From the NCBI GenBank assembly GCA_903835065.1, contig CAILLO010000077.1, positions 112,621 through 176,620 of the forward strand: a DNA stretch of 64,000 nucleotides, in the 5' to 3' direction. This DNA comes from an uncultured Eubacteriales bacterium (GTDB lineage Bacteria > Bacillota > Clostridia > Saccharofermentanales > UBA5734). Positions within the stretch are counted from its first letter, which is position 1; each line of letters opens with the position of its first letter. The position numbers were made by a program, and so were the translations under genes. Below the pieces are notes generated by a model that was not told the origin of the DNA, ran no database searches, and saw only the letters and a program-made list of their open reading frames with translations. Positions 47,746 to 50,840 of this stretch are shown here, one piece after another.

Positions 47746-48351
47746 TCAGGGCCTTCGGGCCGGTCTCGGCCGGCGGACGAGATACCAGGCGAACAGGAAG
47801 GCGCCGAGGGAGATGAGGAAGTCGCCGGCGCTGACCATGTAGGGAGAGAGCAGGCGGACGGGCAGCAGGTCGCCGAGGAAGCCGAGCGGTGCGCCGTCCG
47901 GCGCGTATACGTAGTTGGGGGACGCGGCGATGCGGGCGATGGCGGCCGAGAGCCCCGCCGGGTCGTCGCGGAAGCTCCGAGCGAGCAGCGGACCGACCGG
48001 CATGCGCCCGCCGTTCGCGAGGATGGAGGCGGCGTTGAGCAGGCTGCCGACCAGGATGAGCCGCAGGCCCGGTTTCGCGAAGTTGAGCAGCAGGAAGGCG
48101 GACAACGTGGCGTACTGCAATGCGGCGAACGCGACGAGCGGCAGGGTCTCGTGGGCGACCAGCGCGGCGCTGCCGTCGGCGCCCGGCGAAAGCAGGAGGC
48201 GGCCCATGAGGCCGGTCGAGACGAACAGTTCGCAGGCGATGGACACGAACACCAGCCACAGGTGGCGGAAGCGCTTGTGGAGGATCGAGCGGAAGGAGCC
48301 CTTCGCGAACAGCCCGACGACCAGGCCGAGGACCGCGGCTTCGAGGATCAC
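47746..48351 (-). CDS. DUF5317-like membrane protein
   Basis: 201 aa, multi-[16 protein letters not shown] motif. Confidence 0.75.
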
Positions 48352-48352
48352 G

Positions 48353-49708
48353 TCACGAGGCCTCGGCCTTGTGGGCCGGCGTCAGCTCCTGCGGGGCCGG
48401 CGCGGCGGCCGGCAGCGGTTCGATCCGGTGGATGGCCCGCTCGAGGGCGTCGACGACCGTGGGCGAGAACTGGGTGCCCGACAGGCGCCGGATCTCCGAG
48501 AGGGCCCGCTCGCGCAACATGGCGGGCCGGTAGGGCCGGTCGGTCGTCATGGCGTCGTAGGAGTCGGCGGTGCAGATGATCTGCGCCTCGAGAAGCTGGC
48601 CGTCCGCGGAGGCCGTGGACGGATAGCCCGACCCGTCGTAGGCGATGTGGTGGGCGCGGATGATGCGCACCGCGTCGGCGAGGAACTCGATGCCGCCGAG
48701 CATGTGCGCGCCGATCTCCGGGTGGCGGCGGATCTGCTCGCGCTCCTCCTTGTTCAGGGGACCCGGCTTGTTCAGGATGGCCTCGGGGATGCCGATCTTG
48801 CCGACATCGTGCAGCAGGGCGGCGTACCGCAACGTCTCCATGCGCTTCGCCGAGAGGTCGAGCACGGTGGCCATCCCTTCGCACAGTTCCTCGACGCGCT
48901 TCGAGTGGCCGACCGTATAGACGTCCTTCGCCTCGATCGAGGACGAGAGCGCCTTGATCGTGTCGAGGTAGCCCTTCTTGAGGGAGCTGTAGAGGACGAA
49001 CGTGTATCGGGCGAGCATCAGCGGGCCGAAGAAGAGCACGACGGCGACCCAGCCGAACTGCTGGTACATCAGCGTGATGATGATCCCGAGCACGCCGATC
49101 ACGAAGAGGCTGGGGATCGACCAGAGGAACTGGCCGAACCACTGCCGGATCGTGTTGCGTCCCGTGAAGAAGGTCAAGTAGAGCGCGACGGTCCCCGTGT
49201 TGACCAGGATGTACGCGAGGATGGCCACGACCAGCGGCGCGAGGTTGGCGCCGATGAACGCGAAGAGCGCCGCGAAGCCGGCGAACGCGCGGCCGGCGAG
49301 GAAGCCGCCGCCGAGGGCCGCATAGGCGTAGCCGCCGGCGATCATCGACAGGATGTAGCTCGCGGAATTGAAGAGCGTCTTGTGGACCGGGGTATTGAAG
49401 ATGTGCTCCCGCTTGCCGTGCCCGAAGTCCGAGACGGCGCCGAGGACGGAGACCAGCGCGACCCAGGCGGCCGGCACGGGGCCGAACATCAGGAGGGCGC
49501 AGAGATTCACGGCGAAGGCGACGGTGATCGCGCGGTCCTTGGAGATCACGACGGCCTGGGATTCGGCGATGGCGCCCATGGCGGCGAGGAAGAGCAGGGC
49601 CTTCCAGTTGGCGAGGACGGCGTCCCGGGCGAACCACGTGAGGACGCCGAGGGCGACGAGCCCCACGGCGACCGTGATTCCGAGGTAGAGGACCCAGATC
49701 CGTCTCAT
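48353..49708 (-). CDS. HD-GYP domain protein with N-terminal multi-TM region
   Basis: AALLHDVGKIGIPEAILNKPGPLNKEE; RAHHIAYDGSGYP. Confidence 0.93.
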   Translation of the reverse strand: MRRIWVLYLGITVAVGLVALGVLTWFARDAVLANWKALLFLAAMGAIAESQAVVISKDRAITVAFAVNLCALLMFGPVPAAWVALVSVLGAVSDFGHGKREHIFNTPVHKTLFNSASYILSMIAGGYAYAALGGGFLAGRAFAGFAALFAFIGANLAPLVVAILAYILVNTGTVALYLTFFTGRNTIRQWFGQFLWSIPSLFVIGVLGIIITLMYQQFGWVAVVLFFGPLMLARYTFVLYSSLKKGYLDTIKALSSSIEAKDVYTVGHSKRVEELCEGMATVLDLSAKRMETLRYAALLHDVGKIGIPEAILNKPGPLNKEEREQIRRHPEIGAHMLGGIEFLADAVRIIRAHHIAYDGSGYPSTASADGQLLEAQIICTADSYDAMTTDRPYRPAMLRERALSEIRRLSGTQFSPTVVDALERAIHRIEPLPAAAPAPQELTPAHKAEAS

Positions 49709-49812
49709 GCTTCCGACGCTTTCTCCGACGCGACGTCCGCGCCGGAAGGGCCAGGGGGTTCAGGAGTACGACAGGCCGGCAGGAAATCCTGGTTCGTTGC
49801 ATTCTGACCCGA

Positions 49813-49890
49813 TCAGATGATCTTCCAGTTCGCGCCGCTGGCGAGAACGAGGGCGAGAAGAGCCACGAGAACGCCGATGATCTTCTTCAT
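49813..49890 (-). CDS. 25-aa signal-peptide-like micropeptide MKKIIGVLVALLALVLASGANWKII
   Basis: ATG 12 nt after AAGGAGG; Lys-Lys N-terminus, hydrophobic core, candidate S-G-A cleavage site; below the ORF-track length cutoff. Confidence 0.6.
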   Translation of the reverse strand: MKKIIGVLVALLALVLASGANWKII

Positions 49891-49896
49891 TTGTGC

Positions 49897-49949
49897 TGAC
49901 AACCTCCTTGTCGAGGACTCTACCCCTCCGCTAAGCAGGTAGGTTGTCA
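49897..49949 (-). promoter_or_regulatory. RBS-sequestering hairpin
   Basis: Perfect 9-bp inverted repeat TGACAACCT/AGGTTGTCA; the 3' arm (transcript sense) overlaps the AAGGAGG of the micropeptide. Confidence 0.55.
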
Positions 49950-50070
49950 CGCTCCGCTACGCCGGCCTGTCGTCCAGTCGGTGCGCGTACGCCTTTCCGC
50001 GGTGGCGCGCCGCTTCTCCTGCGCTGAATGTATCACGCGCGGAAGCGCCGCAGAAGCGGTTGCGCGGAAA

Positions 50071-50118
50071 TGTAATCCGCTTCGTCGAGTTGTAATCCTG
50101 GGACGGGAACTGTAAAGA
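50071..50118. repeat. TGTAA direct repeats at exact 20-bp spacing
   Basis: TGTAATCC at 50071 and 50091, TGTAAAGA at 50111. Confidence 0.7.
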
Positions 50119-50143
50119 TAAAGGGCCCCGAGGGAGCCCTCCG
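50111..50143 (-). terminator. Intrinsic terminator of the 50145-50840 gene
   Basis: Minus strand GGAGGGCTCCCTCGGGGCCCTTTATCTTTA. Confidence 0.65.
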
Positions 50144-50144
50144 G

Positions 50145-50840
50145 TCATTCCTGGGCGGCGCGCCCCGCGCGGCCGAGCATGCGGTTCAGGGCGTCGAGCA
50201 CGGCGCGGACGACGGCGTCCTCTTCGCCGACGCCGGCGCGGATCGTAGAGGAGCCGAGCAGGACGAGCTCGCGGTCCCCGTCCTGGAAGGCGACCGCGGC
50301 GTCGATCGCGTCGAGGCCGGCGATCCGGTTCTTCTGGATCTCGAGGACCTGCAGCAGCCCGTCGGCGCCGAAGTAGGCGTGGACGGCCTCGAGGCAGGCG
50401 GCGGCCGCGGCGGTGCGACGGCCGCGCTCGGACGCGGGTCCGCGGGCCTGTCCTTCGAGGGACTGGCCGTCGAAGGACAGCGTGACGGTCGTCTCGACGG
50501 AAGCGTGGTCGACGCGCACGGAGGTCGCGGCGAGCAGGAGGCGCGGCGCGGACCGGATGACGGTGGGCGTCGGGGAGGCGACGGCGACGGTCGGCTCCAT
50601 GTCGCGCTGGATCTGCGCGATGCTGATCGTCTTGTAGTCGACGGGGACGCCGAAGGCGGCCATCGTGCAGGACTGGATATCGCGGACGAGCTGCTTCGGG
50701 GAGCGGGAGGTGTCGGCGAGGACGTGGATCTCGACGATCCGGCCCTCGTCGTCGGTGACGACCTTGGAGGCGGAAACGCCGGCGATCGCGGAGATCAGCC
50801 GCTCGATGTCGGACGTCAGGACGGTCGCGTTCTCGGCCAT
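50145..50840 (-). CDS. Conserved hypothetical; C-terminal half resembles a LeuA dimer/allosteric domain
   Basis: SVRVDHASVETTVTLSFDGQSLEGQARGPA..; LLGSSTIRAGVGEEDAVVRAVLDALNRML. Confidence 0.6.
   Translation of the reverse strand: MAENATVLTSDIERLISAIAGVSASKVVTDDEGRIVEIHVLADTSRSPKQLVRDIQSCTMAAFGVPVDYKTISIAQIQRDMEPTVAVASPTPTVIRSAPRLLLAATSVRVDHASVETTVTLSFDGQSLEGQARGPASERGRRTAAAAACLEAVHAYFGADGLLQVLEIQKNRIAGLDAIDAAVAFQDGDRELVLLGSSTIRAGVGEEDAVVRAVLDALNRMLGRAGRAAQE

Follow-up and report, generated by a model that had tools for sequence, protein, structure and literature searches.

Among the closest described arrangements is the odc1 motif RNA (uORF-25-1; PMC8632094), whose structure hides the ribosome-binding site of a small and strongly conserved peptide ORF lying before a main gene. 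The locus described here resembles it in that the Shine-Dalgarno sequence of a micropeptide lies within a conserved, covarying stem, but the odc1 peptide has a fixed length of 11 aa, occurs in alpha-proteobacteria and has two nearby start codons, whereas here the peptides are hydrophobic helices of 21-34 aa; unlike in odc1, the entire ORF is enclosed by the RNA, and in the window the main gene, coding for an HD-GYP phosphodiesterase, starts 104 nt past the micropeptide stop codon. MgtR, a 30-aa membrane peptide of mgtCBR, binds MgtC via heptad-spaced small residues forming an Ala-coil (PMC6813294). As judged from its sequence, the micropeptide would be like MgtR in being hydrophobic, in carrying heptad small residues and in sharing an operon with a candidate membrane target, although the likeness is one of pattern rather than of shown sequence kinship and MgtR lacks a structured RNA of such a kind. 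The c-di-GMP-I riboswitch (RF01051) precedes a similar-looking micropeptide in a paralogous operon of genome G186, but the RNA of the locus described here does not match RF01051. Precursors of the Phr/RRNPP type also join a signal-like body to a short C-terminal peptide; the peptide described here differs in scoring below the Phr_nterm cut-off and in having, instead of a TPR receptor neighbour, a structured RNA and a membrane HD-GYP protein. To our knowledge, the on/off control of membrane HD-GYP phosphodiesterases in Clostridia-like bacteria is mostly unknown, and a literature search on HD-GYP with DUF5317, on MASE9 and on structured RNA with a short ORF, which covered mainly the main texts of openly accessible papers, returned no earlier description. 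We propose, with a probability of roughly one half, that the structured RNA controls the synthesis of a membrane micropeptide, which in turn modulates the HD-GYP phosphodiesterase encoded next to it in a feedback on c-di-GMP.

The window, which is the whole 64,000-nt stretch of DNA analysed, contains on its minus strand a 25-aa ORF, MKKIIGVLVALLALVLASGANWKII (49813..49890), with an ATG at 49890 and a TGA ending at 49813. This ORF with an AAGGAGG 12 nt upstream had been reported in the preliminary description, and its sequence, coordinates and strand proved exact. The Shine-Dalgarno sequence occupies 49903..49909 on the minus strand, 12 nt from the ATG, and overlaps the hairpin P2 of the RNA; the HD-GYP start at 49708 is 104 nt past the micropeptide stop codon, in agreement with the distance of about 105 nt given earlier. 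A GTG at 49950 opens the same frame too (an alternative of 45 aa), and the ATG at 49890 was taken as the start because of the conservation pattern. Taken alone, an ORF of 25 codons is no evidence for a gene; what raises it above chance is conservation in the family, purifying selection and phylum-wide recurrence behind the same RNA. The pN/pS values of close family pairs were 0.00, 0.00, 0.00, 0.03, 0.05 and 0.11, and pairs of the window genus and G003 gave 0.31-0.34; the pooled value for the family was 0.34, as compared to 1.1 and 2.1 in the other two reading frames, and that over 13 further clades was 0.21. By these substitution patterns the micropeptide codes under purifying selection. Synteny and codon-level conservation had been proposed earlier as a check on the ORF, and both bore it out: the membrane HD-GYP gene lies downstream of the micropeptide in 63/63 evaluable loci, and the pooled pN/pS values are those just given. 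As far as sequence conservation can tell, the gene for the 25-aa micropeptide is real, and both it and the structured RNA that contains it are conserved. Neither the peptide nor the RNA matched a family in Rfam, Pfam or NCBIfam, and a search of its own genome for paralogous peptides elsewhere found none.

The RNA surrounding the ORF consists of two helices on the minus strand. The long-range helix P1, which encloses the whole ORF, is formed by the 5' arm ACGACAGGCCGGC (49961..49973), a perfect 13-nt complement of 49768-49780, and by the 3' arm GCCGGCCTGTCGT (49768..49780), whose pairing is supported by covariation. The hairpin P2 (GACAACCT...AGGTTGTC, 49898..49948), with an inner ACCT/GGGT pairing and a UAGCG loop and likewise supported by covariation, buries part of the micropeptide Shine-Dalgarno sequence, and between the two helices stands the unpaired J1/2 motif AGCGGAGCG (49950..49958) with near-invariant columns. 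The flanking inverted repeat, the Shine-Dalgarno hairpin and the conserved RNA, together with the conserved upstream gene, had escaped the preliminary description. At the family level, the inverted repeat is kept in 15/15 relatives despite sequence change, 12 of 17 P1 pairs have double-sided changes among these 15 relatives, and 93.8% of P1 and P2 cells are paired; shuffles gave 86%, and slid controls did not exceed 50%. Phylum-wide, the median P1 score was 33 as compared to 15 for shuffled sequences, and 57 of 65 loci scored above all 20 shuffles. P2 has 13 pairs, which are 95.9% paired over 66 sequences, and 11 of the 13 covary; its double-sided changes numbered 181 against 53 in shuffled sequences and at most 52 in slid controls, in a phylum alignment that was fitted to the structure and is hence biased towards P2.

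The unpaired segments AGCG(R)AG(C)G, UAGCG and GAG are 91-100% identical and the helices vary; the J1/2 columns AGCG-R-AG-C-G reach this level over 65 phylum-wide sequences, the variable R excepted. RNAs that bind a ligand or a protein usually show such constant unpaired segments joined by varying helices. A GGAGG or GGGGG is present in 59/64 loci, mostly 7-10 nt before the micropeptide start. Folded as a single sequence, the window RNA had a z of only about -1.4 relative to shuffled sequences, which gives no useful support. Covariance models of Rfam, including those of the c-di-GMP-I/II riboswitches, had no match at gathering score in the window and nine relatives, and none at E up to 1 in six relatives. 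One Rfam entry, which scored 13.8 bits where its gathering score is 45, was discarded as a chance match.

The distribution of the cassette was followed at several levels. A peptide profile search found the micropeptide in 15/23 family genomes, and the cassette precedes all family HD-GYP orthologues with enough upstream sequence. Among 85,462 species genomes, the consensus RNA pattern gave 14 matches, all of them uncultured Clostridiales genomes of the window's family; the idea of a family-only feature, drawn from the first strict RNA patterns, was rejected, the covariance model having shown their sensitivity limit. This model was built on the 5' half of the RNA and holds no peptide sequence, and since it ends before the coding region, the ORF behind its matches is an independent test. 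In the wider groups it gave 66 matches, with E-values that are rough, of which 65 are true loci across the phylum; the remaining one (L133), a gyrase-like false positive as judged from translation, was left out. One locus (L134) is truncated by its contig and so unreadable. Directly behind the Shine-Dalgarno sequence, all 64 readable true loci carry an ORF of 21-34 aa, the start codons being picked by rule and by eye, and 63 of them have [GTASC]-G-A near the peptide end. In L118, the RNA and P1 are intact, but the ORF encodes MTFLTMILDLFTRTIASISWW, which lacks the G-A motif and is possibly a degenerating or altered peptide. A peptide match in G033 was judged to be chance, as it covered the hydrophobic part only and lay inside a 185-aa open frame.

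Within the class, 33 of 243 genomes have the upstream gene, and the RNA model was positive in 29 of these 33, with no true match in the 210 genomes lacking that gene (the false L133 aside). The four genomes missed by the model have recognisable diverged copies with peptides such as MKAKLIQILMVVMTLVMAAGAGFKVV. These counts come from a sample of genomes, and the loci share ancestry, so they are not independent events. The micropeptide unit is almost always present once per genome and in the same operon; G860 carries two. This bears on the idea of a type I toxin-like hydrophobic peptide silenced by its folded mRNA. Such a toxin would be small and hydrophobic with its Shine-Dalgarno sequence in a hairpin, as found here, and toxin mRNAs show 5'-3' closing, to which the micropeptide mRNA is alike, but the single copy in one operon across the phylum and the missing signs of mobility, with no match of the consensus RNA pattern in 2.9 million viral contigs, make this explanation very improbable. 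A viral origin, or a mobile element with terminal repeats, was rejected on the same viral result and the fixed synteny.

The gene downstream of the micropeptide (48353..49708, minus strand) encodes a membrane HD-GYP phosphodiesterase with an HD_5 domain (PF13487, 113.5 bits), in which the HD and HH..DGxGYP metal/catalytic residues are intact; c-di-GMP and cGAMP are its candidate substrates. Over 30 sequences, D301, H353, H354, G361, Y362 and P363 are invariant and H300 is nearly so, and structure relatives in the PDB include 9rbz, 4mcw and 5z7c. A MASE9 sensor was found in the HD-GYP orthologues; the domain scan did not detect it in the window protein itself. With the HD-GYP protein as query, a related-locus search of genome contigs gave no matches. 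The next gene (47746..48351, minus strand) encodes a DUF5317 membrane protein (PF17248, 74.9 bits). The preliminary description had suggested that the peptide could signal to the HD-GYP protein, and a partnership of the two is supported by synteny: because the RNA-micropeptide unit precedes the same membrane enzyme in dozens of Clostridia-like bacteria that are only distantly related, the micropeptide is probably a dedicated HD-GYP partner. As a separate lead, the N-terminal MASE9 part has a weak structural likeness to the vitamin-binding S-components of ECF transporters, RibU among them (E about 0.4, target TM 0.62).

The peptides share a distinct anatomy. When the peptides are aligned on G-A, small residues occupy the core positions -12 (60%), -8 (97%), -5 (100%) and -1 (95%), followed by small-G-A, and most other core positions are large hydrophobic residues. 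The spacing 4-3-4-3 is a heptad on a single helix face, with a helical moment of 0.81, where 2000 shuffles averaged 0.39 and reached 0.49 at most, so that a short hydrophobic single helix with heptad-spaced small residues, as in the Ala-coil of MgtR, is found. The tail after G-A is 5 aa long in 45/63 peptides (range 4-10) and aromatic in 62/63, and it varies in sequence, in contrast to the conserved body. It had been suggested that cleavage after S-G-A would release the pentapeptide NWKII, which could signal to the HD-GYP protein; in such a reading, signal peptidase would cut after G-A, and the short aromatic peptide set free, NWKII in the window, would be sensed, perhaps by MASE9. The signal-peptide-like body described earlier is indeed present, with a Lys/Arg start, a hydrophobic core and small residues before the tail; a variable tail of exactly five residues in most peptides fits a secreted pentapeptide, and the window peptide weakly resembles Phr_nterm (E 0.0038, 17.6 bits against a cut-off of 25). 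However, a trace of Phr_nterm was seen in one of six other peptides scanned (E 0.14, 12.7 bits) and in none of the rest, tails of 10 residues occur, and no TPR-type pheromone receptor adjoins the micropeptide. Signal peptidase I does not require a strict Gly at -2, nor do signal peptides require a heptad in the core, and these two features favour a membrane-resident peptide over cleavage. A secreted signal is thus rather unlikely, and we prefer the membrane micropeptide, against which the shortness of the hydrophobic core for a membrane span and the aromatic, usually five-residue tail have to be counted.

The micropeptide ORF and the HD-GYP gene had been placed in one transcription unit. No promoter-like or terminator-like sites were found between them on the minus strand, and a shared unit is plausible from the sequence; what speaks against it is the U-tract that follows P1 in many relatives. 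U takes up 4.2 of the 8 bases after P1 as compared to 2.2 in the background, with at least five U in 29 of 57. The ORF could be an attenuation leader in which translation itself counts, a ribosome at the stop codon keeping P1 from terminating, so that HD-GYP expression would depend on leader translation. The distance from the stop codon to the 3' arm of P1, mostly 6-20 nt, would suit such a device, as would the U-rich stretch and the terminator-like hairpins that lie between peptide and HD-GYP in G280 and G186 too. On the other hand, conservation is phylum-wide at the amino-acid level, tail lengths of 4-10, though five in 45/63, would hardly suit a stall site at a constant distance, intrinsic terminators seldom have loops as long as the roughly 200 nt seen here, and GC-rich genomes such as that of the window have no U-tract after P1. 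We therefore regard attenuation by translation as unlikely. In the membrane-micropeptide reading, P1, with its U-tract in about half of the species, may reduce the transcription that reaches HD-GYP, as the terminators at this place in the paralogues may do.

Upstream of the RNA, a homologue of the same gene is found in 63/63 evaluable loci. In the window it spans 50145..50840 on the minus strand and encodes a soluble protein of 231 aa with a ferredoxin-like part and a fold similar to the LeuA regulatory domain. The AF2 model has a pLDDT of 89, and its C-terminal half is LeuA-regulatory-domain-like (Foldseek top match 3hps, E 1.2e-5); searches of Pfam and NCBIfam gave nothing above cut-off, the match to Pfam PF08502 reaching E 0.02-0.03. 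Binding of an amino acid or of RNA is conceivable for this protein. If it binds RNA, the structured RNA could be its binding site in an autogenous control rather than a ligand sensor, which would agree with the strict co-occurrence and adjacency of the two and with several double-stranded-RNA-binding proteins among the fold matches. Yet LeuA ranks first among the fold matches, those to dsRNA-binding proteins are weak with large rmsd, and the peptide of G280 occurs without the RNA and without the upstream gene, which leaves autogenous control doubtful, though quite conceivable. It is compatible with a membrane role of the peptide, and the confidences of the two readings therefore do not add to one. 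In several distant species (L087, L090 and L091), the upstream gene is itself immediately preceded by a gene that looks like hpf/raiA of the ribosome hibernation factor.

Two paralogous operons show the peptide in other surroundings. MASE9 was detected at E up to 1e-3 in 22 class genomes, of which G280 is the only one without the upstream gene. It encodes a related 31-aa peptide, MFKFKKVSPTLLYIITIVSLVLAGIAGMKWG (L168:1017-1112; profile E 2.5e-4), with a strong Shine-Dalgarno sequence, followed by an intrinsic-terminator-like hairpin and the MASE9-HD-GYP gene; a structured RNA of the window type was not found there. The neighbour upstream of this peptide looks like a chemoreceptor. In G186, a second MASE9-HD-GYP-DUF5317 operon has a c-di-GMP-I riboswitch (RF01051, 65.6 bits; L169:797-904) with a terminator-like platform directly before a similar-looking 32-aa peptide, MTKWGKKAIPVLFYLTTLLCLALSGVAMHKWG, and a terminator-like hairpin between peptide and HD-GYP. 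The match of this peptide to the profile is not significant (E 0.17), its kinship being judged by position and look. The pairing of peptide and MASE9-HD-GYP therefore persists where the window-type RNA does not, and the riboswitch-micropeptide arrangement of G186 hints at c-di-GMP feedback.

The membrane-micropeptide reading would describe a three-part operon module, composed of the LeuA-regulatory-domain-like soluble protein, the micropeptide-bearing structured RNA and the membrane HD-GYP. The RNA would act as a sensor or switch, opening P2 upon a signal and allowing micropeptide translation, and c-di-GMP is a first guess for its ligand from the gene neighbourhood. The micropeptide would insert into the membrane N-in/C-out and might pack through its small-residue heptad, with either the membrane-spanning MASE9 part of HD-GYP or another copy of itself as partner; by altering HD-GYP activity or stability it would close a c-di-GMP feedback loop. 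A stronger version, in which an unrecognised riboswitch class, common across one bacterial phylum (Clostridia and relatives), gates a membrane micropeptide serving the MASE9 HD-GYP as an integral regulatory subunit or as a ligand, all as one feedback module, is put forward tentatively, with the odds somewhat against it. The module offers a directly testable micropeptide together with a sensor-like RNA, neither of which is represented in Rfam, Pfam or NCBIfam. A riboswitch-like RNA class with near-invariant loops would be new, as would a micropeptide family in about 1/8 of the sampled class genomes (29/243 by the RNA model, 33 including diverged copies). Two ATTACA-type repeats, GATTACAAC and GATTACATTT, lie upstream of the RNA at window positions 50060-50120, and similar ones are present in the two nearest relatives; they are possible candidates for promoter or operator elements.
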